From a virus: 22,418 nucleotides of DNA. Of this stretch, positions 1,582 through 20,791 are shown piece by piece. The stretch covers positions 1 through 22,418 of IMG/VR virus record IMGVR_UViG_3300023179_000552. One strand, 5' to 3'. The position numbers and the translations under genes are program-made. The notes under the pieces were generated by a model, which saw only the letters and a list, made by a program, of their open reading frames with translations, was not told where the DNA came from and did no database searches. Numbering within the stretch: the first letter of the stretch is position 1; each line of letters starts with the position of its first letter.

Positions 1582-3300
1582 ATGTCAAACGTACAACAAT
1601 TATTAGAAAGCTCTGCTGGCTCTTGGAAGAGTTTGCAAAGCGACGCTGCTAAACTTGCTGGAAAATGGGCTAAAACTGGCTTATTGGAAGGTTTAGTTGA
1701 AGTGGACAAAAACAACATGTCCCTTTTATTAGAAAACCAAGCAAAACAATTGGTAACTGAATCAAACCAAATCTCTACTAACTCTTACTTCACTTCAGGT
1801 GGACAGGGTGAAAACTGGGCTGGTATTGCTTTACCTTTGGTTCGTAAAGTATTCGGAACCATCGTAGCTAAAGAATTCGTTTCAGTTCAACCAATGAACA
1901 TGCCTTCTGGTCTTGTGTTCTTCTTAGATTTCCAATACGGTAACACTAAGAACCCATTCCAAACTGGTGGTTCTTTGTATGGTACTCGTGACACTGCTTC
2001 TCAGTTCCCATTCTCAACTCCTAGTGCATCTGGTGGTTTATATGGTACTGGTCGTTTCACTTACTCTACTAACTTATTCTCAGCTTCTGCTCAGTCTATT
2101 GCTTCTGCTTCTTATGTTTCTTCAGCATCTTTCCAAGATGTAAACTTTGATCAGAACTTCTCAGCTTCAGTTGCTAACGGAACTATTAAAGAGATTATTT
2201 TCCCTTCAGCTAGTGTTTATATGCCTGCATTTGACCAAGAAGCTGTTCGTGGATTTATTTTAACTTCTGGTTCTATTACTGTTGCTAAGTGTTTTAACCA
2301 ATTCACTACTTACAACTACGCTACTGATACCATTAACTTCTACGTTTCTGCTTCAACAGCTGAAATTGGACAAACTACTATTCCTTTTGTTTCTTACACT
2401 AAGAATGGTTCACAAGATGGTATTAACACAGTATCGGGTAACAACGGTGGTACTGCAAACTTAAGTGGTTCAGGTCGTGGTGATTTCGAAGCTTCAGGAT
2501 CGTTCTCTATTCCTAACAGCGCTTCTCTTTCACAAATCGTTATCCCTGAGATCAACGTAAGAATGCAATCTCAAGCCATCACTGCTAAAACCAAGAAATT
2601 GAAAGCGGTATGGACTCCTGAATTTGCACAAGATTTAGCTGCTTACCAAAACATCGACGCTGAAGCTGAATTGACTAACATCATGAGCGAGTACATTTCA
2701 ATGGAAATTGATTTGGAAATCTTGGATATGTTGATCGAAGATGCTGCTGCTGCTACTGAGTACTGGTCAGCTGCTAACAACAACGTTTACAACGCTTCTA
2801 CTCAGTTGTTCTCAACTGGTGGTTCTGCTTTTTACAACACACAAGGTCAATGGTTCCAAACTTTAGGTACTAAAATCCAAAAAGTATCTAACAAGATTCA
2901 CCAGTTGACTTTACGTGGAGGTGCTAATTTCTTGGTTACTTCTCCTACAGTAGCAACTATCTTGGAATCAATCCCAGGATTCGCTTCTACTTCAAACGGT
3001 GAAGCTGATCAAATGGAATACGCTTTCGGTGTACAGAAAATCGGAACTGTAAACGGTCGTTACAAAGTTTACAAAAACCCTTACTTGACTGAAAACTTGA
3101 TCCTTATGGGTTACAGAGGTTCTCAGTTCTTGGAAACTGGTGCTGTATTCGCTCCTTACATTCCTTTAATCATGACTCCATTGGTGTACGATCCTGATAC
3201 CTTCACTCCACGTAAAGGTTTATTGACTCGTTACGCTAAGAAGATGTTACGTCCTGAATTCTACGGTAAGATTTACATCGATAGCTTAAACACTATCTAA
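1582..3300 (+). CDS. Major capsid protein, T4 gp23-like
   Basis: This 572-residue protein is the main subunit of the head shell. Several stretches match T4 gp23 as I recall it. There is an N-terminal delta region with LLLENQAKQL (gp23: IFENQEKDF), then VRKVFGTIVAKEFVSVQPMN near residues 87-105 (gp23: VRRAIPNLIAFDICGVQPMN), AKTKKLKAVW near 335, and FAQDLAAYQNIDAEAEL just after it. The end is YGKIYIDSLNTI. By analogy with gp23, which is cut after LTE at residue 65, the maturation protease may cut after Glu60 in LVTE|SNQ; this is inferred. The stretch between the VQPMN and AKTKK motifs (about residues 105-330) is rich in Ser and Ala and appears several tens of residues longer than in T4. The leader before the ATG is almost pure A/C with no Shine-Dalgarno sequence, yet the gene must be highly expressed. 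Confidence 0.93.
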   Translation: MSNVQQLLESSAGSWKSLQSDAAKLAGKWAKTGLLEGLVEVDKNNMSLLLENQAKQLVTESNQISTNSYFTSGGQGENWAGIALPLVRKVFGTIVAKEFVSVQPMNMPSGLVFFLDFQYGNTKNPFQTGGSLYGTRDTASQFPFSTPSASGGLYGTGRFTYSTNLFSASAQSIASASYVSSASFQDVNFDQNFSASVANGTIKEIIFPSASVYMPAFDQEAVRGFILTSGSITVAKCFNQFTTYNYATDTINFYVSASTAEIGQTTIPFVSYTKNGSQDGINTVSGNNGGTANLSGSGRGDFEASGSFSIPNSASLSQIVIPEINVRMQSQAITAKTKKLKAVWTPEFAQDLAAYQNIDAEAELTNIMSEYISMEIDLEILDMLIEDAAAATEYWSAANNNVYNASTQLFSTGGSAFYNTQGQWFQTLGTKIQKVSNKIHQLTLRGGANFLVTSPTVATILESIPGFASTSNGEADQMEYAFGVQKIGTVNGRYKVYKNPYLTENLILMGYRGSQFLETGAVFAPYIPLIMTPLVYDPDTFTPRKGLLTRYAKKMLRPEFYGKIYIDSLNTI

Positions 3301-3330
3301 TCTTAGTAAAGGAATAACATTTCTGTAAAG

Positions 3331-3357
3331 AAGCCCCGAGAAATCGGGGCTTTTTTT
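3331..3357 (+). terminator. Strong Rho-independent terminator after the major capsid gene
   Basis: A 9-bp perfect stem, AAGCCCCGA (3331-3339) with TCGGGGCTT (3344-3352), is closed by a GAAA tetraloop (3340-3343) and followed by a T run to 3357. It lies about 30 bp after the capsid stop and separates the capsid transcript from the accessory operon. Confidence 0.93.
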
Positions 3358-3379
3358 AACTAGTATAGGCCTGTATAAT

Positions 3380-4330
3380 ATGTATAGTAAATACAGTTAC
3401 ACTAAATTAAATTTTATGAAAGAGACTCCAAGTCAGTTACCAATTCAAAGTTTCGTTATGAACTTTCCATTCTCATTATCAACAGCAGACCCAAATAACA
3501 TTTGGATGCAAGAGTTAACAGATGAGGAATTAACAATTAACAAACCTAAGGCATACAAACAATTTATGGATTTGTATAATTTTGTTGCTGGTGGTGCTTT
3601 AGTTAATCTATTACCCTCAGAAGGTAATTTCCAAGACCAAGTTTATGTAGCTAATTTAGGTATTTATTTACCTCATATTAAAAACGAAAACCATATTATT
3701 TTATCTAATTTTACTTCTGATCCTCGTAAAGGTGAAGAATTAGTTGGAGAAAAATACTTTAATCAAATGGGTTATAAAACAGCTATTTCTCCATACAAAT
3801 GGGAAGGTGAGGCCGATTTAAAATACCTTTACGGAAACAAATATATTGGTGGTTATGGTATTCGCTCAAACATCAAAGCATATGAATGGATGGAAGAAAC
3901 ATACAATATGGACATTCTTAAAGTAGCTATGGTTGATGAATATTTGTATCACTTAGATTGTTCTATTTTTGCATTAAATCAAGACCAGACATTAGTTTGT
4001 ACTGAATTGTTTGATGAGGAAGAATTACAAATGATTGAAAAAGAAACAGAAATTATTGATATCCATGTTGATGATGCTTTGTGTGGATTAACAAATTCTG
4101 TAAGAATGGGTAACATGATTATGTGTGCCTCTAATATTTCTGAATTAAAAAAATCACATGAATATTATGAAGGTGAAAAACATAAAATTGAAACACTAGA
4201 AAAGATTTGTAGCGATGCTGGTATGGAACCCGCTATTTTCAATTTATCAGAATATATGAAATCAGGTGCTATGTTGTCTTGTATGATGATGCACTTAAAT
4301 CGAGTTGATCACAATAAAACCTTATTATAA
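3380..4330 (+). CDS. Amidinotransferase / dimethylarginine dimethylaminohydrolase-type (pentein) enzyme
   Basis: The protein (316 residues from ATG 3380, 304 from ATG 3416) looks like a guanidine-modifying enzyme of the pentein fold, a family that acts on arginine or substituted arginines through a catalytic cysteine. Numbered from 3380, the visible hallmarks are an acidic WEGEADLKYL (141-150), YGIRSN (159-164), a central YHLDCSIFAL with the likely catalytic His191 (190-199), and a C-terminal SGAMLSCMMMHLN where Cys301 is the probable nucleophile. The family is clear from this order, but the substrate is not; hydrolase and transferase are both possible. The start is uncertain: ATG 3380 lies inside a TATAATATG sequence that may be promoter, and ATG 3416 (MKETPSQLP) has a more ordinary A/T-rich leader. 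The stop overlaps the next ATG by one base, which indicates an operon with the decarboxylase. Confidence 0.75.
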   Translation: MYSKYSYTKLNFMKETPSQLPIQSFVMNFPFSLSTADPNNIWMQELTDEELTINKPKAYKQFMDLYNFVAGGALVNLLPSEGNFQDQVYVANLGIYLPHIKNENHIILSNFTSDPRKGEELVGEKYFNQMGYKTAISPYKWEGEADLKYLYGNKYIGGYGIRSNIKAYEWMEETYNMDILKVAMVDEYLYHLDCSIFALNQDQTLVCTELFDEEELQMIEKETEIIDIHVDDALCGLTNSVRMGNMIMCASNISELKKSHEYYEGEKHKIETLEKICSDAGMEPAIFNLSEYMKSGAMLSCMMMHLNRVDHNKTLL

Positions 4331-5061
4331 TGGCACAAACATTACAAGAGTGGTTAAGTACTGAAGTTAAACAACTTCAAAAGATGCCTGTAGGCGAATT
4401 ATCTAATGTATTTTTCTTTAGAGACCCAATTCGTCCTAATTACATTGATCATGAGCATTTTTACTCTCCAGCTGATGGAACTATTTTATACCAAAAGTTT
4501 ATTAAAGATCCTACTGAACCTATAGTTGAAATTAAGGGTATGAATTATACTCTTCAAGATGTTATGGGCGACGATGAATATAATAAACCTTCACTAGTTA
4601 TCGGTATATTTATGTCATTTTATGACGTTCACATTAATCGTATACCCTACGGAGGTCTGCTGTCATATAAACCACTAGACGCGATTCAATCGACAAACAA
4701 ACCAATGTTAGCGGTTGAAAAAGATATATTAAATAAAAAAATTAACCCCGCAAACATGGAGTATTTAAAGTATAACGAACGTATGTGGAATAAAATTTAT
4801 TCACCATCTTTAGATTATACTTATTACTTAATTCAAATTGCAGACGAGGATGTAAACGTAATTGCTCCATTTACTATGGATCAAAACGATGTTTTTGCTC
4901 AAAATGAAAGATTTTCTTTAATTAGATGGGGTTCACAAGTTGATTTAGTGTTACCGTTAGATGATAGATATGATTTCGAGTTATGTTTAGATGATGCTAT
5001 GCATGTTAATGCTGGCTTAGACCAACTTGTAAAAATTAACTTCAATGAATACACAACCTAA
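4330..5061 (+). CDS. Phosphatidylserine decarboxylase, short-form family
   Basis: This 243-residue protein resembles the short phosphatidylserine (or archaetidylserine) decarboxylases, which make phosphatidylethanolamine-type lipids with a self-generated pyruvoyl group. The motifs appear in family order: SPADG (46-50), KGMNYTLQDVMGDD (69-82), MSFYDVHINRIP (95-106), and NERFSLIRWGSQVDLVLP (192-209). The Asp-His-Ser set known for the family is present as Asp49, His101 and Ser202. Self-cleavage would fall between Gly201 and Ser202, leaving a 42-residue alpha chain that carries the pyruvoyl end. I see no clear membrane segment. The gene overlaps its upstream neighbour by 1 base and the PhoH-like gene by 17 bases, so all three are probably translated together. 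An active enzyme would change host membrane lipids; a degenerate homologue with another role cannot be excluded. Confidence 0.85.
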   Translation: MAQTLQEWLSTEVKQLQKMPVGELSNVFFFRDPIRPNYIDHEHFYSPADGTILYQKFIKDPTEPIVEIKGMNYTLQDVMGDDEYNKPSLVIGIFMSFYDVHINRIPYGGLLSYKPLDAIQSTNKPMLAVEKDILNKKINPANMEYLKYNERMWNKIYSPSLDYTYYLIQIADEDVNVIAPFTMDQNDVFAQNERFSLIRWGSQVDLVLPLDDRYDFELCLDDAMHVNAGLDQLVKINFNEYTT

Positions 5062-5782
5062 CCATGAAGACGAGATCTTCAAAGAAAAGCGTAAACCAAA
5101 AAATCCAATAACATTTAAATTACAATTAAACGAGGAACAAAAACAGGCTAAAGCTAAAATATTAGAAAGTACTATTACTTTACTAGCAGGAGCAGCAGGT
5201 TCAGGTAAAACATTACTTGCTTGCCAAATTGGTTTAGAACGTTTATTTATGAGAGAAGTTGAAAAGGTAATTATTACCCGACCAACTGTATCAAAAGAGG
5301 AAATTGGATTTTTACCAGGTGATTTGAGAGAAAAAATGGATCCTTGGGTTCAACCAATTTATCAAAACATGTTTTTACTCTATAATAAAGAAAAAGTAGA
5401 AAAATGTATTGCTGAAGGTCAAATTGAAATTGTTCCTGTATCATTTATGAGAGGACGTACATTTGTAAATTGTATAGTAATTGTAGACGAAGCTCAAAAC
5501 GTAACACATGAACAAATGGAAATGATTGTTACTCGTATTGGTAAAGGATCTAAAATGATTATTTGTGGTGATGATGCTCAAGTAGATTTAAAACAAAAAC
5601 GCGATTCTGGATTTAAGTTTTTATATTCGGCTGCTAAACGTATTAAAAATTTAGAAGCAATATCTTTAAAACAAAACCACAGAGACCCAATAGTAGAAGA
5701 TTTAATTAATCTATATAATGACGCATATGAAAAAGGTATGAGTTTAGGATCTTCAGGTACAAACGGAAGTTCTAAAAAATAA
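5045..5782 (+). CDS. phoH: PhoH-like P-loop ATPase
   Basis: This 245-residue protein has the full PhoH core. The Walker A motif is GAAGSGKT (49-56), followed by the PhoH signature VIITRPTVSKEEIGFLPGD (75-93), Walker B IVIVDEAQ (144-151), and ICGDDAQVDL (173-182), which carries the polar residues typical of this NTPase group. PhoH proteins are common in T4-like and other phages; a role in RNA or phosphate-stress metabolism has been proposed, but the phage function is unsettled. The start overlaps the end of the decarboxylase gene by 17 bases. The last 15 residues (SLGSSGTNGSSKK) form a flexible Gly/Ser tail that happens to resemble the composition of the giant repeat gene downstream. Confidence 0.93.
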   Translation: MNTQPNHEDEIFKEKRKPKNPITFKLQLNEEQKQAKAKILESTITLLAGAAGSGKTLLACQIGLERLFMREVEKVIITRPTVSKEEIGFLPGDLREKMDPWVQPIYQNMFLLYNKEKVEKCIAEGQIEIVPVSFMRGRTFVNCIVIVDEAQNVTHEQMEMIVTRIGKGSKMIICGDDAQVDLKQKRDSGFKFLYSAAKRIKNLEAISLKQNHRDPIVEDLINLYNDAYEKGMSLGSSGTNGSSKK

Positions 5783-9043: not shown

Positions 9044-12000
9044 ATGGCGCAAGTAAGATTTTTAGATCAGGTACCGGTTGGTGTATATAATCCTAATGGA
9101 GGAAATGGTGGGGGTGGGACTATTGATATATATCAAAATGGAATATTAGTTAGTGCTAGTGTTCCCTTTATAAATTTTAGTGGTTCAGAAGTAATAACAG
9201 GATTTGGTGTTAGTGGAAGCAACACTGGTGTAACTGTTTATATTTCTGGTTCAGGAGGAGTAGGATTCCCATTTTCAGGTTCAGCCGTTATCACTGGATC
9301 TTTAGTTATTTCTGGGTCTTCTCAACCTCTTATAATACAAACTCTACCAGTTCAATCTGGTCCTTATGTTGTTACATATAACCCTGTTTCAGGTCTTTTT
9401 GGATATGTAAATTCTACTTCTGGTACAAGTGGTGTATCAGGTACAAATGGTACAGCAGGAGTTTCAGGAATAAGTAATACATCTGGTACAGGAGGTACTT
9501 CAGGTACAACAGGTACAAGTGGTACAGCGGGTGCTTCAGGAGCAGGAAATTCAAGTGCTTCTAGTGGTACTTCAGGAACTAGTGGTACAAATGGTACAAC
9601 AGGAGCAGCAGGTGCTTCAAATTCAAGTCAATCAAGTGGAACAAGTGGTTCATCTGGTACTTCGGGTACAGCAGGTGCTATAGGTTCTAGTAATTCAAGC
9701 CAATCAAGTGGAACAAGTGGTTCATCTGGTACTTCAGGTACAGCAGGTGCTGCTGGTGCTTCAAATAGTAGTGCTTCATCAGGAACTTCAGGTACTACTG
9801 GATCTAATGGTAGTACAGGCCTTTCAGGTTCCTCAGGTGCAAGTGGTTCTTCACAATCAAGTGGAACTTCAGGATCAACTGGTACTAATGGTACAGCAGG
9901 TGCTGTAGGTTCTTCGGCTTCAAGTGCTTCTAGTGGAACAAGTGGTACTAATGGTACATCAGGTACAGCAGGAGCTGCTGGTTTATCTAATAGCAGTGCT
10001 TCTTCTGGTACATCTGGTACAAATGGTACATCAGGTATAGCTGGAGTAGCAGGAGCAAGTGCTTTAAGTACTTCATCAGGTACTAGTGGTTCATCTGGTA
10101 CTTCGGGTACAGCAGGTGCAAATGGAGCAAATAGTACTTCAGGTATAAGCGGAACAAGTGGTTCTTCAGGATCTACAGGTACTGCGGGTGCTGCTGGTTT
10201 AAGTAGATCATCAGATTCATCTGGAACTAGTGGTAGTTCAGGTTCAACAGGTACTACAGGTACAAATGGTTTAGCAGGTGCTTCAAATAGTAGCGCTTCT
10301 TCCGGTACTTCTGGATCTTCAGGTTCAACAGGTACAGCAGGTGCTGCAGGAGCAAGTCAATCAAGTCAATCATCTGGAACATCTGGTACTACAGGTACTA
10401 GTGGTTCTAGTGGTATAGCAGGTGCAAGTGGTACAAGTGTAACTAGTGGTACTAGTGGTTCAAGTGGTTCTACAGGTTCAAGTGGTTCTACTGGTACAGC
10501 AGGTGCTGCAGGAGCAAGTGCGTCAAGTACATCTTCAGGAACAAGTGGTTCTTCAGGTTCAACAGGAACATCAGGAACACAAGGAGCAGCAGGACAAAGC
10601 CGTTTAAGTGATTCATCTGGAACAAGCGGTTCTTCAGGTTCATCTGGTACTACAGGTACTAATGGTGTTGCTGGTTCCTCAACTTCAAGTCAATCTTCAG
10701 GAACTTCTGGTTCTAGTGGTTCTACAGGAACTGCGGGTACTGCAGGAGCAGCAGGTGCTTCAAATTCAAGTCAATCATCAGGTACAAGTGGTACAGCAGG
10801 TACATCTGGATCTACAGGTACAAATGGTACTGCAGGTGCTGCGGGTGGTAGTACGTCAAGTGCTTCTAGTGGAACATCAGGATCTTCAGGATCAACAGGT
10901 ACTAATGGAACAGCTGGTGCTGCAGGTGCAAGTGTTTCAAGTGCATCAAGTGGAACTTCAGGTTCAAGTGGTTCTGCTGGTACTTCAGGTACAGCAGGTG
11001 CTGCAGGAACAAGTCAATCAAGTTCTTCATCTGGTACTTCAGGTTCATCTGGTAGTACTGGTTCAACTGGTACAGCAGGTGCTGCTGGTGCTTCACGTTT
11101 AAGTGATACTTCAGGTACTTCTGGTACTTCTGGATCTTCAGGATCAACTGGTACAAATGGTACTGCGGGGGCTGCAGGTGGTAGTACTTCAAGCGCATCA
11201 AGTGGAACTAGTGGATCTTCAGGTTCAACTGGTACAAATGGTACTGCTGGAATAGCAGGTAATAGCACTTCAAGTGCTTCTAGTGGTACAGCAGGTACAT
11301 CTGGTTCTACAGGTACTTCTGGTACTGCAGGAGCAGCTGGAGCAAGTAATTCAAGTCAATCTTCAGGAACTTCTGGTTCTAGTGGTTCATCAGGATCTAC
11401 AGGTTCAGCAGGTGCTGCTGGTTCTAGTAGACTAAGTGATTCATCAGGAACAAGTGGTTCTTCTGGTTCATCAGGATCAACGGGTACTAATGGTACCGCA
11501 GGTGCTGCTGGAGCTTCAACATCAAGTGCTTCTTCTGGAACAAGTGGTTCAAGTGGTTCTACAGGTACTTCTGGTACTGCAGGAGCAGCTGGAGCAAGTA
11601 ATTCAAGTCAATCAAGTGGTACATCTGGTTCATCAGGTAGTACTGGTACTGCTGGTACAGCAGGTAATAGTAATTCAAGTACATCAAGTGGAACCTCAGG
11701 TTCTTCAGGTTCTTCAGGTTCAGTAGGTGCTGCTGGTGCTAGTCAATCAAGTAATTCAAGTGGAACTAGTGGTAGTACAGGATCTAGTGGTTCATCAGGA
11801 CTAAATGGGTTTAACGGACTTTCTGGACAAAGTGGTTCATCAGGTTCAAATGGTTCATCAGGTGTTGATGGAACAAGTGGTGCAAGTAAGTCTTCAGGTA
11901 CAAGTGGTTCATCGGGTACAACAGGTACAGCAGGTGCTACAGGTTCATCTCAATCTTCCCAATCTTCAGGTACCTCAGGTACTTCAGGTTCTACAGGTAC

Positions 12001-15000
12001 AGCAGGTACAGCAGGATCTGGAAGTTTAAGTTCATCAAGTGGTACAAGTGGTTCATCAGGTAGTACAGGTTCAGCAGGTGCTGCTGGTACTTCAAATTTA
12101 AGTGCATCTTCAGGTACAAGTGGTTCTTCAGGTAGTGCAGGTACAAATGGTACCGCGGGTGCTGCAGGTGGTAGTACTTCAAGTGCATCTTCAGGTACTA
12201 GTGGCTCATCTGGTTCAACAGGTACTTCAGGTACTCAAGGTGCCGCTGGTCAAAGTAGACTAAGTGATTCATCAGGTACAAGCGGCTCTTCAGGTTCATC
12301 TGGTACAACTGGTACAAATGGTTTAGCTGGTGGAAGTAATTCAAGCGCATCTTCAGGTACTTCAGGTACAAGTGGTTCTACAGGAACTTCAGGTACTGCT
12401 GGAGCTGCTGGTGGAAGTGCTTTAAGTCAATCATCTGGTACTAGTGGTACATCAGGTTCTACAGGAACTGCGGGTACTGCAGGAGCAGCAGGTGCTTCAA
12501 ATTCAAGTCAATCAAGTGGAACAAGTGGTTCATCTGGTAGTACTGGTTCAACTGGTACAGCAGGTGCTGCTGGTGCTTCACGTTTAAGTGATACAAGCGG
12601 TACTTCAGGAACTTCAGGTACATCTGGTAGTACTGGTACTAATGGTACTGCTGGAGCTTCAGGTGCCTCAACATCAAGTGCTTCATCTGGAACTTCAGGA
12701 TCTTCAGGATCTACAGGTACTAATGGAACAGCAGGTGCAGCTGGTATTTCAAATTCAAGTAATAGCTCAGGTACTTCAGGTTCAAGTGGTTCTACAGGTT
12801 CTGCAGGAGCTGCTGGTTCTTCAGCATCAAGTGCTTCTTCAGGAACAAGTGGTAGTACAGGATCTAGTGGTTCAGCAGGTATATCAGGTGCTTCAGGTGC
12901 TAGTGGTTCTTCTCAATCTAGTGGATCTTCAGGTTCATCAGGTACAAATGGTACTTCTGGAGCTGCAGGTGCTGCAGGTTCAAGCGCTTTAAGTACCTCA
13001 AGTGGTACATCAGGTTCATCAGGTACTAATGGTACAGCTGGTGCTGCAGGGGCAAGCCAATTAAGCCAATCCTCAGGCACAAGTGGTTCTTCAGGTAGTA
13101 CAGGAACAAATGGTACCGCTGGTAATTCTGGTACTTCAAATTCTAGTGCGTCTTCAGGAACAAGTGGTTCATCGGGTAGTAATGGTTCTGCAGGAGCTGC
13201 TGGTTCTTCGGCATCAAGTGCTTCATCTGGAACATCAGGTTCTTCAGGTTCAACAGGTACTGCGGGTGCTGCAGGTTCATCTCAATTAAGCCAATCTTCA
13301 GGTACAAGTGGTTCAAGCGGTAGTACAGGAACTTCTGGTACTGCTGGATCTGCTGGTCAAAGTCGTTTAAGTGATAGTTCAGGAACATCAGGTTCAAGTG
13401 GTACATCAGGTTCAACAGGAACTAATGGTACTGCTGGAGCTGCTGGTTCTTCAAATACAAGTAATACATCTGGTACTAGTGGTTCTGCTGGTACAAACGG
13501 TACAGCAGGTGCTGCTGGAGCTTCTACTTCAAGTGCTTCTTCTGGTACAAGTGGTACTTCTGGTTCTACTGGTACAAATGGTACAGCAGGTAATGCTGGA
13601 ACTAGTAATTTAAGTGCATCAAGTGGTACTTCTGGAACTAGTGGTTCTACAGGTTCTGCAGGAGCTGCTGGTTCTTCAGCATCAAGTGCTTCTTCAGGAA
13701 CATCAGGTTCTTCAGGTAGTACAGGTTCAGCAGGTAATGCTGGAACTAGTAATTCAAGTGCATCAAGTGGTACTTCTGGGTCTTCTGGTACAAGTGGTAC
13801 AGCAGGTGCTGTTGGTGGAAGTGCTTCAAGTGCATCAAGTGGTACTTCTGGATCTTCAGGATCTACAGGAACATCAGGAACACAAGGAGCAGCAGGACAA
13901 AGCCGTTTAAGTGATAGTTCAGGAACTTCAGGTTCTTCTGGAACTAGTGGTTCAACAGGTACTAATGGTACTGCAGGTGCTTCTGGAACTAGTAATAGTA
14001 GTGCATCTTCAGGTACAAGTGGTTCTAGTGGTTCAACAGGTACTAATGGTACTGCAGGTGCTTCTGGAACTAGTAATAGTAGTGCATCTTCAGGTACAAG
14101 TGGTTCTAGTGGTTCTACAGGAACAAATGGTACAGCAGGTAATGCGGGTTCATCTCAATCAAGTGCTTCTAGTGGTACAGCAGGTACAAGTGGTTCTTCA
14201 GGAACTGCAGGTACAGCAGGTGCTGCTGGTGCTTCAAATTCAAGTCAATCGTCTGGTACAAGCGGAACAAGTGGTTCTACAGGAACTACTGGTACTGCTG
14301 GTAACGCAGGTGCTTCAAATAATAGTACCTCTTCAGGTACTAGTGGTTCTAGTGGTTCTGCTGGTACTGCAGGTACCGCCGGTGCTTCTGGAGCTTCAAA
14401 TTCTAGTGCATCAAGTGGAACAAGTGGTTCATCTGGTTCTACTGGTTCACAAGGTGCTGCTGGTTCTTCTCGTTTAAGTGATACAAGTGGTACTTCAGGT
14501 TCATCAGGATCTACAGGTACTACAGGTACAAATGGTTTAGCTGGAGGAAGTGCTTCAAGTGCTTCAAGTGGTACAGCTGGAACTTCAGGTTCTTCAGGAA
14601 CAAACGGAACAGCAGGTGCTGTAGGTTCTTCAGCTTCAAGTGCATCAAGTGGTACAGCAGGTACATCAGGTTCTTCAGGAACAAACGGAACAGCAGGTGC
14701 TGCTGGAACAGGTGCTTCAAGTAATACATCAGGAACAAGTGGTAGTACTGGTACTAATGGTACTGCGGGTAATGCAGGTTCATCACAATCAAGTGCTTCA
14801 TCTGGAACTAGTGGTTCTAGTGGTTCTACAGGAACAAGTGGTACAGCAGGTAATACTGGTTCATCACAATCAAGCGCTTCCTCTGGTACAAGTGGTTCAT
14901 CAGGTAGTACAGGTTCAGCAGGTGCTGCAGGAGCTAGTGCTTTAAGTAATACATCAGGAACTTCAGGTTCATCTGGTTCAAATGGTAACGCAGGTGTTGC

Positions 15001-18000
15001 TGGTTTAAGCAACGTAAGTGCAACTTCAGGAACTTCAGGTTCAAATGGTACATCAGGTAATGCTGGAGCAGCAGGTTCAAGCGCATCAAGTGCATCTTCA
15101 GGTACCTCAGGTTCTTCAGGAACAAATGGTACAGCAGGAGCAGCAGGTGCTTCAAATAGTAGCTCTTCATCTGGTACTTCAGGTTCAAGTGGTTCAGCTG
15201 GAACAGCTGGTACTGCAGGAGCCGCAGGTGCTTCAAATTCTAGCGCTTCTAGTGGTACTAGTGGTTCATCAGGATCTACAGGTTCACAAGGTGCTGCAGG
15301 TTTAAGCAGATTAAGTGATAGTTCAGGTACCTCAGGTTCAAGTGGTTCATCAGGTACAACTGGTACAAACGGTTTAGCTGGTGCTTCTTCATCAAGTGCT
15401 TCTAGTGGAACATCAGGTTCTAGTGGTTCAACAGGTACTAATGGTACAGCTGGAGCCGCTGGTACTTCAAATAGTAGCGCTTCTAGCGGTACAGCAGGTA
15501 CTTCAGGTTCAACAGGAACTTCAGGTACGGCAGGTGCTTCAGGTGCTTCAAATAGTAGTGCTTCTTCTGGTACAAGTGGTTCCTCAGGTAGCGCAGGTTC
15601 AGCAGGTAATGCTGGTTCAAGTAATTCAAGTACAAGTTCAGGTACTTCAGGATCTAGTGGTTCAGCTGGAACAGCTGGTACTGCTGGAGCTGCAGGTACA
15701 AGTCAATCAAGTGCATCAAGTGGAACTTCAGGTACATCAGGTAGCAATGGTACAGCAGGTGCTGCTGGTACTTCTAATATAAGTGCTTCATCAGGTACTT
15801 CTGGATCTTCAGGTTCAACAGGTACAGCAGGTGCTGCAGGAGCAAGTCAATCAAGCCAATCTTCAGGAACAAGTGGTTCTTCAGGTTCAACAGGTACTTC
15901 AGGTACTACTGGAGCTGCAGGATTAAGTCGTTCAAGTGACAGTTCAGGTACTTCAGGTTCAAGTGGTTCATCTGGTACTACAGGTACAAATGGTTTAGCC
16001 GGTGGAAGTAATTCAAGCGCTTCTTCAGGAACTTCAGGTTCATCAGGATCTGCTGGTACAGCAGGTACAGCAGGAGCTGCAGGTTCAAGTCAATTTAGTG
16101 CTTCTTCTGGTACAAGTGGTTCATCAGGATCTACAGGTTCAGCAGGTGCTGCTGGAACTTCTAATACAAGTAATTCAAGTGGAACAAGTGGTTCATCAGG
16201 TACTAATGGTACTGCTGGTGTATCTGGTTCTTCATCATCAAGTGCTAGTTCTGGTACTGCTGGTTCTTCAGGAACAAGCGGTTCTACAGGAACAAACGGA
16301 ACAGCAGGTGTTGCTGGTTCTTCAGCTTCAAGTGCATCTTCAGGTACTGCAGGTACAAGTGGTTCTACAGGTACAGCAGGTACTTCAGGAAATGCTAATT
16401 CAAGTGCTTCTAGTGGTACATCAGGTACTTCAGGTTCAACAGGTACATCAGGTAATGCTGGAGGAAGTAATACAAGTGCTTCATCAGGAACTTCAGGTTC
16501 ATCAGGATCTGCGGGTACAGCAGGTACAGCGGGTGCTGCTGGAGCAAGTCAATCAAGTGCTTCAAGTGGAACAAGTGGTTCAAGTGGTTCTACAGGAACA
16601 AGTGGTACACAAGGTGCTGCTGGTCAAAGCCGTTTAAGTGACAGCTCAGGAACATCAGGTTCAAGCGGAACAAGCGGTTCTACAGGTACTAATGGTACTG
16701 CAGGTGCTGCTGGTACCTCAAATTCAAGTGCTAGTTCTGGTACTGCCGGTTCTTCAGGAACAAGTGGTTCAGCAGGTACTAATGGTACAGCAGGTAATGC
16801 AGGTTCAAGCACATCAAGTGCTTCTAGTGGTACATCAGGTACATCAGGTTCTTCAGGAACTGCAGGTACAGCAGGTGCTGCTGGAGCTTCAAATTCAAGT
16901 AACTCATCAGGTACAAGTGGAACTTCAGGTTCAACAGGTACTATAGGAACAGCAGGTGCTGCTGGTACAAGTAATTCAAGTACAACCTCAGGAACATCAG
17001 GTTCATCAGGTTCATCGGGAACTGCTGGTACAGCAGGAGCTGCAGGTTCATCTCAATCTTCTCAATCTTCTGGTACTTCAGGTACTAGTGGTTCATCAGG
17101 ATCTACAGGTTCAGCAGGTGCTGCTGGTTCAAGTAGATTATCTGATTCATCAGGTACTAGTGGTAGTTCAGGTTCAACAGGTACTACAGGTACAAATGGT
17201 TTAGCAGGAGCAAGTGCATCAAGTGCTTCATCAGGTACTTCAGGTTCATCAGGTTCAACTGGAACTTCAGGTACAGCAGGTGCTTCAGGTGCTTCTAATT
17301 CATCAGCTTCAAGTGGTACTTCAGGAACTTCAGGTTCAACAGGTACAGCAGGTACTGCAGGAGCAGCAGGTGCTTCAAATAGTAGTGCTTCTTCAGGAAC
17401 TTCAGGTTCATCTGGATCTGCAGGTACTATAGGAACAGCTGGCGCTTCAGGAGCAAGTAATTCAAGTGCAAGTTCAGGAACATCAGGATCTTCAGGTTCT
17501 GCAGGTACTGCTGGCACAGCAGGTGCTGCTGGGGTTTCAAACTCTAGTGCTTCATCTGGAACTTCAGGTTCATCAGGATCTACAGGTACCCAAGGTGCTG
17601 CCGGTTCTTCTCGTTTAAGTGATAGTTCAGGAACTTCAGGTACAAGTGGTTCTACTGGTACAACTGGTACAAATGGTTTAGCAGGTGCTTCAAATTCAAG
17701 TGCTTCAAGTGGTACAGCAGGTACCTCAGGTTCAACCGGAACTAATGGTACAACTGGAGCATCAGGTGCTTCAAATAATAGTGCATCTTCTGGAACAAGT
17801 GGTTCTTCAGGATCTACAGGTACTACGGGTACAGCTGGAGCAGCAGGTGCAAGTAATTCATCAAATTCTAGTGGAACAAGTGGTTCTACAGGATCTAATG
17901 GTACGGCAGGTAACGCGGGTTCAAGTAACGCATCAAATTCAAGTGGTACTAGTGGTACTAGTGGTTCAGGAGGTTCAGCAGGTATTGGAGGTGCTTCAGG

Positions 18001-20791
18001 TGCTTCCGCTGCTAGTGCTTCATCAGGAACTTCAGGTACATCAGGCACAAATGGTACATCAGGTAATAATGGTGCTTCAAATTCAAGTGCATCATCAGGT
18101 ACAAGCGGTACATCAGGTACAACTGGTACAAATGGTTTAGCTGGTGCAAGTGCATCATCAAATACAAGTGGAACTTCAGGTTCTTCAGGAACTAATGGTA
18201 ATGCTGGTGTAGCAGGAGCTAGTGCTTCTAGTGCTTCAAGTGGAACTAGTGGTTCTAGTGGTACAACAGGTACTCAAGGAGCAGCTGGAGGAAGTAGACT
18301 AAGTGACACGTCAGGTACTTCAGGTACAAGTGGATCAAGTGGTTCAACAGGAACAAATGGTACAGCAGGTATAGGAGCTCTAAGTAACACAGCTGGTACA
18401 GCCGGAACTAGTGGTACAATAGGTACTACAGGATTGGGAGGTAACAGCGGAGCAAGTAACACATCAGGAACAAGTGGTACAACAGGTTCAAATGGTAACG
18501 CTGGAGCCGCTGGTTCAAGTGCATCAAGTGCTTCTTCAGGAACTAGTGGAACATCAGGTTCAAATGGAACAAACGGTAACGCGGGTGCCGCAGGTTTAAG
18601 TAATATAAGTGCTACTTCAGGAACCACAGGTTCAAATGGTACAAATGGTTTACCAGGAGTGTCAGGAATAAGCGCAGCTAGCGCGACATCAGGTTCAAGT
18701 GGTTCTAATGGTTCAAACGGTAATGCTGGTATAGCAGGCCAATCAGCTTTAAGTGCTACTTCTGGCACTAGTGGTTCTTCAGGTACAACAGGTACAACAG
18801 GGGCTGCTGGAGTTGCTGGTTCAAGTGCATCAAGTGCTTCAAGTGGAACAAGTGGTACTAACGGTACTTCAGGTGGACCTGGTATAGCAGGTTTAAGCGC
18901 AGCTAGTGCAACTTCTGGTTCATCAGGATCAAATGGTACTAACGGTGTAGCAGGTGCTGCTGGTTCAAGTGCTTTAAGTGCAACTTCAGGAACTACAGGT
19001 TCAAGTGGTACAAGTGGTAACGCAGGAGCAGCGGGTGCAAGTGCATCTAGCGCATCTTCAGGAACATCTGGTTCAAGTGGTTCATCAGGTACAAGTGGTT
19101 TAGCTGGTGCTTCTGGTTTAAGTGCTGCTAGTGCATCAAGTGGTTCAAGTGGTACAAACGGTACTAATGGAAACGCTGGAGCAGCAGGTGCAAGTGCATC
19201 AAGTGCATCTTCAGGTACTACAGGTACTAATGGTACAAGTGGTAATGCTGGAGCAGCAGGTGCGAGCGCATTAAGTGCTTCTAGTGGTACTTCAGGAACA
19301 TCAGGATCTACAGGTACTAATGGAAATGCGGGTGCCGCAGGTTCAAGTAATATAAGTGCTACTTCAGGTACTACAGGTTCAAATGGTACTAACGGCTTAC
19401 CTGGAGTATCAGGGGTAAGTGCAGCTAGTGCGACTTCAGGTTCAAGTGGTTCTAATGGTACAAATGGTAACGCAGGTATAGCAGGTCAATCTGCTCTAAG
19501 TGCTACTTCAGGAACATCTGGATCAACAGGTACAACAGGTACAACAGGTAACGCAGGTGCTGCTGGTTCAAGTGCTTTAAGTGCTACTTCAGGAACTACA
19601 GGTTCAAGTGGTACAAATGGTTTACCTGGAACAATAGGAATAAGTGCAGCTAGTGCGACTTCAGGTACTACAGGTTCAAATGGTACTTCTGGAAACCCAG
19701 GTATAGCTGGAAATAGTGCTTCAAGTGCTACATCAGGTTCAGGAGGTACTAATGGTACTAACGGAGCGGCTGGTGCTGGTGGATTAAGTGCAGGAAGTAA
19801 TACATCTGGTACAAGTGGTACTAATGGTACAGCAGGTAACGCTGGAGCTGCTGCTTCTTCTAACACAAGTGGAACTTCTGGTTCATCAGGAACAACAGGC
19901 GCAGCTGGTGCCGCTGGTTCAAGTAATTCAAGTGCTACTTCAGGAACCACAGGTTCAAATGGTACTTCTGGAGGACCTGGTATAGCAGGTTTAAGTGCTG
20001 CAAGTAATACATCAGGTACTTCAGGTTCAAGTGGTACTGGAGGTACATCAGGTATAGGTGGATTAGCAGGTGCTTCTTCTACAAGTAATACAAGTGGAAC
20101 AAGTGGTTCAACAGGTACAACAGGTACTCAAGGCGCGGCTGGTCAAAGTCGTTTAAGTGACACTTCAGGTACTTCAGGTTCAAGTGGTACTACAGGTACT
20201 ACTGGTACTAATGGTTTAAGTGTTGGTGGTTCAACTTCAGGAACTTCAGGTTCAGCAGGTTCATCAGGTGTATCTATTAACGGTACTTCAGGTATTAGTG
20301 GTGGTGTATTTAACAACCAACCAAATTATATAGTATATACAGTAAGTGGAACAACAGTACAAAGTACAAATTTCTTATACGCTGATATTACAAATAGTAG
20401 ATTTGGTGTTGGTACTACTTCTCCATCATATCCATTACATGTAGCAACAAATGTGAGTGGTATTTCAATATATGCAGCTTATGATATTCAAGCATTTTCA
20501 GATGAAAGAGTAAAAGCAAATGTTAAAGTAATTGAAAATTCTCTTAATAAAATCCAACAAATTGATGGTGTTACATTTATAAGAACTGATAATCCATCAA
20601 ACCCAACACAAAGACATGCTGGTGTAATTGCTCAACAAATAGAAAAAGTACTACCAGAAGTAGTAAGTACAGATAAAGAAACAGGAATTAAATCAGTAGC
20701 ATATGGTAATATAAGTGGATTGTTGATTGAAGCTATTAAAGAATTGAATAAAAAAGTAGAAAATTTACAAAATCAATTAAATAGTAAATAA
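9044..20791 (+). CDS. Giant Gly-X-Y repeat tail-fibre-like protein with C-terminal S74 chaperone domain
   Basis: This 3,915-residue protein is probably a virion fibre that reaches the host. Residues 1-126 form a beta-rich head (MAQVRFLDQVPVGVY, then TIDIYQNGILVSA), a style seen in phage fibre bases. Residues 127-3752 are Gly-X-Y triplets of Gly, Ser, Thr, Ala and Asn with almost no charge, no aromatics except rare Phe, and only six prolines, all in the last third. Every 8-10 triplets the Gly is replaced in two successive triplets (xSSxSS). The neck includes RFGVGTTSPSYPLHV (about 3786-3800), a common motif before fibre tips. The C-terminus is a peptidase S74/endosialidase-type intramolecular chaperone. 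It has SDERVK with Ser3819 and Lys3824 (the known Ser-to-Lys+5 spacing of the self-cleaving dyad), HAGVIAQQ at 3858-3865, and a terminal coiled coil. This family trimerises fibres and then cuts itself off, so a homotrimer is likely. The stop overlaps the next ATG (TAATG). Confidence 0.9.
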   Translation: MAQVRFLDQVPVGVYNPNGGNGGGGTIDIYQNGILVSASVPFINFSGSEVITGFGVSGSNTGVTVYISGSGGVGFPFSGSAVITGSLVISGSSQPLIIQTLPVQSGPYVVTYNPVSGLFGYVNSTSGTSGVSGTNGTAGVSGISNTSGTGGTSGTTGTSGTAGASGAGNSSASSGTSGTSGTNGTTGAAGASNSSQSSGTSGSSGTSGTAGAIGSSNSSQSSGTSGSSGTSGTAGAAGASNSSASSGTSGTTGSNGSTGLSGSSGASGSSQSSGTSGSTGTNGTAGAVGSSASSASSGTSGTNGTSGTAGAAGLSNSSASSGTSGTNGTSGIAGVAGASALSTSSGTSGSSGTSGTAGANGANSTSGISGTSGSSGSTGTAGAAGLSRSSDSSGTSGSSGSTGTTGTNGLAGASNSSASSGTSGSSGSTGTAGAAGASQSSQSSGTSGTTGTSGSSGIAGASGTSVTSGTSGSSGSTGSSGSTGTAGAAGASASSTSSGTSGSSGSTGTSGTQGAAGQSRLSDSSGTSGSSGSSGTTGTNGVAGSSTSSQSSGTSGSSGSTGTAGTAGAAGASNSSQSSGTSGTAGTSGSTGTNGTAGAAGGSTSSASSGTSGSSGSTGTNGTAGAAGASVSSASSGTSGSSGSAGTSGTAGAAGTSQSSSSSGTSGSSGSTGSTGTAGAAGASRLSDTSGTSGTSGSSGSTGTNGTAGAAGGSTSSASSGTSGSSGSTGTNGTAGIAGNSTSSASSGTAGTSGSTGTSGTAGAAGASNSSQSSGTSGSSGSSGSTGSAGAAGSSRLSDSSGTSGSSGSSGSTGTNGTAGAAGASTSSASSGTSGSSGSTGTSGTAGAAGASNSSQSSGTSGSSGSTGTAGTAGNSNSSTSSGTSGSSGSSGSVGAAGASQSSNSSGTSGSTGSSGSSGLNGFNGLSGQSGSSGSNGSSGVDGTSGASKSSGTSGSSGTTGTAGATGSSQSSQSSGTSGTSGSTGTAGTAGSGSLSSSSGTSGSSGSTGSAGAAGTSNLSASSGTSGSSGSAGTNGTAGAAGGSTSSASSGTSGSSGSTGTSGTQGAAGQSRLSDSSGTSGSSGSSGTTGTNGLAGGSNSSASSGTSGTSGSTGTSGTAGAAGGSALSQSSGTSGTSGSTGTAGTAGAAGASNSSQSSGTSGSSGSTGSTGTAGAAGASRLSDTSGTSGTSGTSGSTGTNGTAGASGASTSSASSGTSGSSGSTGTNGTAGAAGISNSSNSSGTSGSSGSTGSAGAAGSSASSASSGTSGSTGSSGSAGISGASGASGSSQSSGSSGSSGTNGTSGAAGAAGSSALSTSSGTSGSSGTNGTAGAAGASQLSQSSGTSGSSGSTGTNGTAGNSGTSNSSASSGTSGSSGSNGSAGAAGSSASSASSGTSGSSGSTGTAGAAGSSQLSQSSGTSGSSGSTGTSGTAGSAGQSRLSDSSGTSGSSGTSGSTGTNGTAGAAGSSNTSNTSGTSGSAGTNGTAGAAGASTSSASSGTSGTSGSTGTNGTAGNAGTSNLSASSGTSGTSGSTGSAGAAGSSASSASSGTSGSSGSTGSAGNAGTSNSSASSGTSGSSGTSGTAGAVGGSASSASSGTSGSSGSTGTSGTQGAAGQSRLSDSSGTSGSSGTSGSTGTNGTAGASGTSNSSASSGTSGSSGSTGTNGTAGASGTSNSSASSGTSGSSGSTGTNGTAGNAGSSQSSASSGTAGTSGSSGTAGTAGAAGASNSSQSSGTSGTSGSTGTTGTAGNAGASNNSTSSGTSGSSGSAGTAGTAGASGASNSSASSGTSGSSGSTGSQGAAGSSRLSDTSGTSGSSGSTGTTGTNGLAGGSASSASSGTAGTSGSSGTNGTAGAVGSSASSASSGTAGTSGSSGTNGTAGAAGTGASSNTSGTSGSTGTNGTAGNAGSSQSSASSGTSGSSGSTGTSGTAGNTGSSQSSASSGTSGSSGSTGSAGAAGASALSNTSGTSGSSGSNGNAGVAGLSNVSATSGTSGSNGTSGNAGAAGSSASSASSGTSGSSGTNGTAGAAGASNSSSSSGTSGSSGSAGTAGTAGAAGASNSSASSGTSGSSGSTGSQGAAGLSRLSDSSGTSGSSGSSGTTGTNGLAGASSSSASSGTSGSSGSTGTNGTAGAAGTSNSSASSGTAGTSGSTGTSGTAGASGASNSSASSGTSGSSGSAGSAGNAGSSNSSTSSGTSGSSGSAGTAGTAGAAGTSQSSASSGTSGTSGSNGTAGAAGTSNISASSGTSGSSGSTGTAGAAGASQSSQSSGTSGSSGSTGTSGTTGAAGLSRSSDSSGTSGSSGSSGTTGTNGLAGGSNSSASSGTSGSSGSAGTAGTAGAAGSSQFSASSGTSGSSGSTGSAGAAGTSNTSNSSGTSGSSGTNGTAGVSGSSSSSASSGTAGSSGTSGSTGTNGTAGVAGSSASSASSGTAGTSGSTGTAGTSGNANSSASSGTSGTSGSTGTSGNAGGSNTSASSGTSGSSGSAGTAGTAGAAGASQSSASSGTSGSSGSTGTSGTQGAAGQSRLSDSSGTSGSSGTSGSTGTNGTAGAAGTSNSSASSGTAGSSGTSGSAGTNGTAGNAGSSTSSASSGTSGTSGSSGTAGTAGAAGASNSSNSSGTSGTSGSTGTIGTAGAAGTSNSSTTSGTSGSSGSSGTAGTAGAAGSSQSSQSSGTSGTSGSSGSTGSAGAAGSSRLSDSSGTSGSSGSTGTTGTNGLAGASASSASSGTSGSSGSTGTSGTAGASGASNSSASSGTSGTSGSTGTAGTAGAAGASNSSASSGTSGSSGSAGTIGTAGASGASNSSASSGTSGSSGSAGTAGTAGAAGVSNSSASSGTSGSSGSTGTQGAAGSSRLSDSSGTSGTSGSTGTTGTNGLAGASNSSASSGTAGTSGSTGTNGTTGASGASNNSASSGTSGSSGSTGTTGTAGAAGASNSSNSSGTSGSTGSNGTAGNAGSSNASNSSGTSGTSGSGGSAGIGGASGASAASASSGTSGTSGTNGTSGNNGASNSSASSGTSGTSGTTGTNGLAGASASSNTSGTSGSSGTNGNAGVAGASASSASSGTSGSSGTTGTQGAAGGSRLSDTSGTSGTSGSSGSTGTNGTAGIGALSNTAGTAGTSGTIGTTGLGGNSGASNTSGTSGTTGSNGNAGAAGSSASSASSGTSGTSGSNGTNGNAGAAGLSNISATSGTTGSNGTNGLPGVSGISAASATSGSSGSNGSNGNAGIAGQSALSATSGTSGSSGTTGTTGAAGVAGSSASSASSGTSGTNGTSGGPGIAGLSAASATSGSSGSNGTNGVAGAAGSSALSATSGTTGSSGTSGNAGAAGASASSASSGTSGSSGSSGTSGLAGASGLSAASASSGSSGTNGTNGNAGAAGASASSASSGTTGTNGTSGNAGAAGASALSASSGTSGTSGSTGTNGNAGAAGSSNISATSGTTGSNGTNGLPGVSGVSAASATSGSSGSNGTNGNAGIAGQSALSATSGTSGSTGTTGTTGNAGAAGSSALSATSGTTGSSGTNGLPGTIGISAASATSGTTGSNGTSGNPGIAGNSASSATSGSGGTNGTNGAAGAGGLSAGSNTSGTSGTNGTAGNAGAAASSNTSGTSGSSGTTGAAGAAGSSNSSATSGTTGSNGTSGGPGIAGLSAASNTSGTSGSSGTGGTSGIGGLAGASSTSNTSGTSGSTGTTGTQGAAGQSRLSDTSGTSGSSGTTGTTGTNGLSVGGSTSGTSGSAGSSGVSINGTSGISGGVFNNQPNYIVYTVSGTTVQSTNFLYADITNSRFGVGTTSPSYPLHVATNVSGISIYAAYDIQAFSDERVKANVKVIENSLNKIQQIDGVTFIRTDNPSNPTQRHAGVIAQQIEKVLPEVVSTDKETGIKSVAYGNISGLLIEAIKELNKKVENLQNQLNSK
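13944..14115 (+). repeat. Exact 81-bp tandem duplication inside the fibre gene
   Basis: Bases 13944-14034 and 14025-14115 are identical over 91 positions at an offset of 81. The first difference is at 14035 (A) against 14116 (T). This is one whole 27-residue unit duplicated without a single synonymous change, unlike most neighbouring units. Confidence 0.93.
18595..18810 (+). repeat. Copy 1 of a long diverged block repeat in the distal fibre region
   Basis: The encoded run NISATSGTTGSNGTNGLPG, with its ~45 following residues (to QSALSATSGTSG), recurs almost unchanged in protein at about 19342-19555. The DNA differs at many third positions (for example ACCACA against ACTACA, and TTACCAGGAGTG against TTACCTGGAGTA). 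It is an old multi-unit duplication. Confidence 0.8.
19342..19555 (+). repeat. Copy 2 of the long diverged block repeat in the distal fibre region
   Basis: Partner of the block at about 18595-18810. The protein is nearly the same, including LPGVSG and AGIAGQSALSATSG, with changes such as Ile to Val after VSG and Ser to Thr in the SNG segment. Third positions are much more diverged than first and second positions. Confidence 0.8.
20498..20788 (+). other. Peptidase S74-type intramolecular chaperone, the part predicted to be released by self-cleavage
   Basis: This part encodes the last 97 residues of the giant protein, starting at Ser3819 of SDERVK. The Ser/Lys pair spaced by five matches the self-cleavage dyad described for endosialidase-type C-terminal chaperones. 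HAGVIAQQ and the final heptad region (KELNKKVENLQNQL) are also typical. Cleavage next to Ser3819 is inferred from the family. If it occurs, the mature virion fibre would lack this segment. Confidence 0.85.

Follow-up and report, generated by a model that had tools for sequence, protein, structure and literature searches.

Results

The window, that is, the whole stretch of DNA analysed here (22,418 nt, IMGVR_UViG_3300023179_000552), represents the structural-gene cassette of a phage of the T4-like (gp23) kind. The gene of the gp23-type major capsid protein (1582..3300, + strand; PF07068, E 1.5e-75) is followed at its 3′ side by a Rho-independent terminator (3332..3357, +), AGCCCCGA-GAAA-TCGGGGCT and then a T run, which is retained in most of the relatives compared; the stretch 3320-3372 around it has a predicted fold of -21.3 kcal/mol (z -3.9). 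Beyond the terminator, which separates gp23 from the gene pair discussed here, lie a gene for an arginine-dihydrolase-like pentein (3416..4330, +; 304 aa from ATG 3416; NF052232, E 5e-23), one for a soluble, pyruvoyl-type decarboxylase of the phosphatidylserine decarboxylase (PSD) family (4330..5061, +; 243 aa; PF02666, E 3e-24) and one for a PhoH-like ATPase (5045..5782, +; PF02562, E 7e-64). The pentein stop and the decarboxylase start share one base in the sequence TAATG (4328-4332), an overlap found in 94 of 107 comparable junctions, and the decarboxylase and phoH genes overlap by 17 bases. The overlapping operon of pentein, decarboxylase and phoH given in a preliminary description of this locus is thereby confirmed, with the families assigned by the PF02666, PhoH and NF052232 profiles. 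That description began the pentein at 3380, where an open reading frame does start (3380-4330, 316 aa; residues are numbered here from its ATG), but the true start is probably 3416, because nearly all of the relatives compared keep the sequence ATGAAAGARAC at this position, and a conserved TATAATATGTATA element lies within the 36 bases 5′ of it, behind the capsid terminator.

This TATAATATGTATA / TATATTTATA element (3374..3386, +) occupies the same place in most of the 26 relatives compared and is a possible promoter of the pair operon; in a sigma-70 scan it scored not above chance. As an observation in its own right, the TATATAATATGTATA-type element occurs clade-wide in the gap between the capsid terminator and the pentein and may be a late promoter motif of these phages. 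The phoH gene follows the pair in most IMG/VR relatives and was not found in the neighbourhood of the pair in Bacteroides phages, Campylobacter phages or bacteria; as a neighbour in the window's clade only, it was rejected as a partner. Further along the window, a 3,915-residue open reading frame (9044-20791) consists almost entirely of SGTSGSSGTAG-like repeats, as in a giant collagen-like fibre, and its end resembles by eye the intramolecular-chaperone (S74-type) end of tail fibres.

Profile searches placed the pentein nearest to arginine dihydrolase and bacterial dimethylargininase (DDAH-type) (E 5e-23). Its score against NF052232 was 81.7 bits, far below the equivalog cut-off of 450, and it is therefore not ArgZ itself but would only work like an arginine dihydrolase. 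In a phmmer search of the PDB it matched ArgZ/AgrE only, and it had no match to the Pfam amidinotransferase family. When its AlphaFold2 model (pLDDT 93) was compared with known structures by Foldseek, ranks 1-13 were all ArgZ/AgrE (best E 2.7e-21), DDAH was the next family (about 1e-12), and amidinotransferases appeared at about 1e-11, from rank 18 downwards; in sequence and in predicted structure, ArgZ/AgrE is thus its closest relative. The catalytic Cys301 and His191 that had been pointed out in the preliminary description are present and invariant in the 31 pentein sequences aligned, and Asn92 is also invariant. In an alignment with ArgZ sequences from cyanobacterial genomes, N22, N71, R90, R139, H168, D170 and C264 of ArgZ correspond to pentein N40, N92, R116, R162, H191, D193 and C301, and ArgZ D121 to pentein D146, a position occupied by Asp or Glu. 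We take Asn71 of ArgZ to be the residue that distinguishes dihydrolases, and the two arginine positions of ArgZ/AgrE presumably hold the carboxylate of the substrate. N71S and C264S appear in PDB entry titles as ArgZ/AgrE mutants that have been studied. With this fold and these residues, the pentein probably acts in arginine chemistry, and amino-group chemistry on a guanidine substrate, one of the readings earlier suggested for the locus, fits.

The decarboxylase scored 86 bits against PF02666 (gathering cut-off 22), and its best score against the NCBIfam PSD equivalog models was 73 bits, below the cut-off of 183. In a fold search E. coli PSD was the only significant match. Residues D49, H101, G201 and S202, three of which (Asp49, His101 and Ser202) had been named as catalytic beforehand, are invariant in 30 sequences, and the protein is predicted from these to cleave itself between G201 and S202. 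The N-terminal region of 112 enzymes of the pair is only 40-47 residues long and has no hydrophobic stretch (maximum mean hydropathy 0.73). By contrast, clear membrane segments (2.3-2.9) are present in three canonical PSDs of the short type, two of which come from bacteria that also have the pair, and the N-terminal region of the E. coli-type PSD of Xenorhabdus is 108 residues long. Compared with the short-type canonical enzymes, the pair enzyme also has extra conserved segments at about 66-85 and 120-143. By its sequence it is a soluble-type PSD paralogue that lacks the membrane-anchoring N-terminus, and its substrate is, with good probability, soluble and of the amino-acid type. A tree of pair and canonical PSDs, with three canonical rows left out, was not used as its branch order was poorly supported. 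Homology to SpeD/AdoMetDC was not found, profile matches being to the PSD family only, and a neofunctionalised SpeD was rejected on this ground.

The two genes are inherited together. Of 50,697 phage records, 47 had the pentein and 45 the decarboxylase, an essentially identical set made up of Campylobacter Fletchervirus and six Bacteroides phages, and scans of IMG/VR added hundreds of relatives. The preliminary description had left it to a search whether the pair exists outside this contig; many genomes carry it. The phages among them fall into at least three groups (the T4-like clade of the window, a Bacteroides group otherwise almost unrelated to it, and Fletchervirus), across which the catalytic residues of both proteins are kept, no loss having been seen in relatives. 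The genes lie at most 1.5 kb apart in 236 loci read, a number that includes repeat fetches of the same contigs and comes down to 113 distinct protein pairs. Every viral locus that reaches far enough has both genes except in Fletchervirus, where both are present and, as in NCTC12673, stand about 43 kb apart. Pairwise distances of the two proteins are strongly correlated (mirror-tree r 0.92, against a maximum of 0.49 in 2,000 permutations), and dN/dS of the window's pair against nine close relatives is 0.01-0.09 (around 0.05); with 113 distinct pairs and such values, the association is not a matter of chance. Bacteroides phage SJC03 has only about 10 detectable genes in common with three near-complete phages of the window's clade, and among these the pair ranks with the best conserved, after GroEL, which indicates that it moves as a unit. 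SJC03-type phages have the pair in the midst of replication and nucleotide genes, in the window's clade it follows the capsid gene, and Fletchervirus has the two genes apart; the capsid-region position emphasised in the preliminary description is therefore local to the window's clade and is not a property of the system.

Four SJC03-type phages have the pair together with dUTPase/dCTP-deaminase-like and GMP-reductase-like genes (L001:16852-18334; L278:5698-7113; L209:7284-8750; L208:5471-6321; in L208 these two genes and the decarboxylase gene are on the opposite strand). A GMP reductase is odd within a phage operon and might go with a guanine-depleted or inosine-bearing genome. Since the GMP-reductase-like gene is absent from the window's clade and from Fletchervirus, GMP reductase/IMPDH was rejected as a common third partner, being limited to the SJC03-type lineage. 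In one of these phages a 366-residue protein encoded between the decarboxylase and the dUTPase-like gene (L209:6184-7284) looks by eye like a PRMT-like SAM methyltransferase and had no Pfam or NCBIfam match. The Fletchervirus decarboxylase adjoins a GroES-like gene (L003:7694-8768), GroES and GroEL being found elsewhere in the window's clade and SJC03. A contig in a Verrucomicrobiota assembly (L326) carries the pentein and decarboxylase genes together with a dUTPase-like gene; it has the look of phage DNA and may represent another group of phages that have the pair. Xanthomonas phage phiXF1 gave a match annotated as dimethylarginine hydrolase, 25% identical over two thirds of the length. Neither the phage pair nor the Xenorhabdus pair matched any PADLOC model, and a known anti-phage defence system was rejected accordingly.

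For bacterial relatives, a scan of 84,980 species genomes yielded 11 loci whose pentein shares 43-51% identity with that of the window, in Acidobacteria, Verrucomicrobia, Gemmatimonadetes, Xenorhabdus, Saprospiraceae, Rhodospirillaceae and the cyanobacterium Dulcicalothrix. The decarboxylase homologue adjoins the pentein in eight of these; in a ninth genome, of Verrucomicrobia (G019), it lies elsewhere in the assembly, the pentein locus (L206) ending at a contig edge. All nine genomes with the paralogue also have a separate, better-scoring ordinary PSD. An exporter gene commonly neighbours the bacterial pair: MatE in Acidobacteria, Gemmatimonadetes and Saprospiraceae, and an ABC exporter in Xenorhabdus, while a Verrucomicrobia contig has pentein and MatE. 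In Dulcicalothrix, whose genome has no PSD-family gene, the order is pentein, PLP-dependent decarboxylase of the ornithine/DAP/arginine type (PF02784/PF00278), pentein of the agmatine deiminase family (PF04371) and ABC transporter. Rhodospirillaceae have pentein homologues with no PSD partner, and a proteobacterial genome (G888) has two diverged pentein copies (L322 and L323) with no adjoining decarboxylase. Close penteins were rare in a wider sampling of four phyla (3 of 398, 1 of 199, 2 of 241 and 1 of 200 genomes), in counts that include the starting genomes and one match, in a Verrucomicrobiota assembly, that looks like a phage contig.

Discussion

We propose that the pair is a mobile two-enzyme pathway whose starting material would be free arginine and whose product would be a soluble, cationic small amine, a tentative reading whose probability we put just short of even. 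The pentein would hydrolyse arginine to ornithine, CO2 and two NH3 by arginine dihydrolase chemistry, with Cys301 and His191 as catalysts and Asn92 at the position where deiminases have Asp. The PSD-like protein would then cut itself at Gly201-Ser202 to generate a pyruvoyl group, with which it could decarboxylate an amino acid; the most likely substrate is ornithine, which would give putrescine. Bacteria would export the product through the adjoining MATE or ABC pump; the phages have no such pump, so it would be retained during infection. There it could act as a di-cation that neutralises DNA being packaged or replicated, or that supports late translation. That the product is putrescine itself is a tentative assignment too, somewhat under an even call. 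Spermidine synthase was found in none of the 11 phage records carrying the pair, so putrescine would be either an end product or a substrate for enzymes of the host. Putrescine is not a typical cargo of MATE pumps, and the bacterial product may therefore be something else. We know of no ornithine decarboxylase in the PSD family, and the Rhodospirillaceae pentein homologues that have no PSD partner count against the pathway.

The remodelling of host membrane lipids envisaged in the preliminary description, in which the decarboxylase would make phosphatidylethanolamine or another amino-lipid while the pentein modified a guanidino lipid or arginine alongside, did not hold up well. The enzyme does score above the Pfam cut-off of the PSD family, and viral psd and pssA have been taken as lipid genes in a marine survey of auxiliary metabolic genes (PMC11360552), but the 112 pair enzymes lack the membrane-anchoring N-terminus that is present in short-type PSDs from these same bacteria, the bacteria keep a separate housekeeping PSD, and Dulcicalothrix has a PLP amino-acid-type decarboxylase in place of the PSD-like gene. 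The MATE pumps, as exporters of small molecules, and the arginine-type active site of the pentein point the same way. Read as a product of this module, an amine is likely and a membrane lipid unlikely, and lipid remodelling in the form just described we regard as quite improbable. A different use of arginine, in which the pentein would move its amidino group onto an amine made or trimmed by the decarboxylase and so yield a guanidino compound, would suit the annotation of the Campylobacter phage genes as amidinotransferase, the Foldseek matches to SxtG, HsvA and AGAT (E about 1e-11) and the resemblance of the exporter-adjoining bacterial copies to small natural-product operons. We nevertheless find it rather unlikely, given that the ArgZ fold is closer by some ten orders of magnitude in E-value, that the amidinotransferase family of Pfam is not matched and that the position of ArgZ Asn71 is kept.

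The amine could also go onto DNA, or the module could be part of a re-tooling of nucleotides. The dUTPase/dCTP-deaminase-like and GMP-reductase-like neighbours in the four SJC03-type phages speak for this, as does the replacement of dG by deoxyinosine in Fletchervirus (PMC8713573); the substitution as reported is, however, plain deoxyinosine with no amine, the GMP-reductase-like gene is missing from Fletchervirus and the window's clade, and the bacterial copies have exporters rather than DNA genes as neighbours, so that a modified base seems very improbable to us. Equally improbable is that the benefit lies in depleting arginine (starving the host, or defence), releasing ammonia or consuming protons for pH control, with the amine as waste. 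On the family assignments, dihydrolase chemistry would give two NH3, decarboxylation would use a proton and the bacterial exporters would remove the amine, but the module has neither an antiporter nor an uptake gene as partner, PADLOC gave no match, and a decarboxylase would be superfluous for depletion. Beyond the arginine-to-amine pathway as such, it is possible, with more doubt than confidence on our part, that an arginine-type pentein and a soluble PSD-family decarboxylase, joined in bacteria by an exporter, form an undescribed module that makes a specific small amine or guanidino compound, secreted by bacteria and acquired independently by several unrelated phage groups for use inside infected cells; both the product and its purpose in infection would then be new.

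The families are known singly, and the pair as a mobile module of phages and bacteria appears to be undescribed in the searchable literature, where our search for it returned one paper only, a marine survey of auxiliary metabolic genes. If the proposal is true, phages that infect gut and food-borne hosts, as well as aquatic T4-like phages, would have in the pair a new and non-homologous way of making a polyamine, or the pair would make a new secreted amine. The proposal would also lead to a new reading of Campylobacter phage genes labelled amidinotransferase and phosphatidylserine decarboxylase, and two small soluble proteins offer a direct assay route to the use of arginine by phages.

In PHROG the same proteins fall into phrog_12759 and phrog_12670 (E 1e-66 and 3e-43), both of unknown function. 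With the N-terminal domain of cyanobacterial ArgZ/AgrE the window's pentein shares the fold, the catalytic Cys, His and Asp, Asn71 and the two arginine positions, but it is only about 22% identical, has no fused ornithine cyclodeaminase domain and has a PSD-family decarboxylase as partner. With phosphatidylserine decarboxylase (PF02666) the second enzyme shares the catalytic Asp and His and the Gly-Ser cleavage site, and differs in its short soluble N-terminus, in its extra segments and in being a paralogue that accompanies a housekeeping PSD. PsiD, the self-cleaving L-tryptophan decarboxylase of Psilocybe, sets the precedent for a PSD-family enzyme with a free amino acid as its substrate (PMC12603985), although PsiD is fungal, uses an aromatic substrate and has no pentein partner. 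A survey of viral polyamine genes found pyruvoyl-dependent ornithine and arginine decarboxylases derived from SpeD; it reported no homologues of arginase in phages, and the pentein/decarboxylase pair goes unmentioned there (PMC9992855). Those enzymes decarboxylate ornithine or arginine by a pyruvoyl group during infection, as proposed here; the decarboxylase of the pair is not homologous to them, and the step from arginine to ornithine would be carried out by a pentein instead of an arginase.
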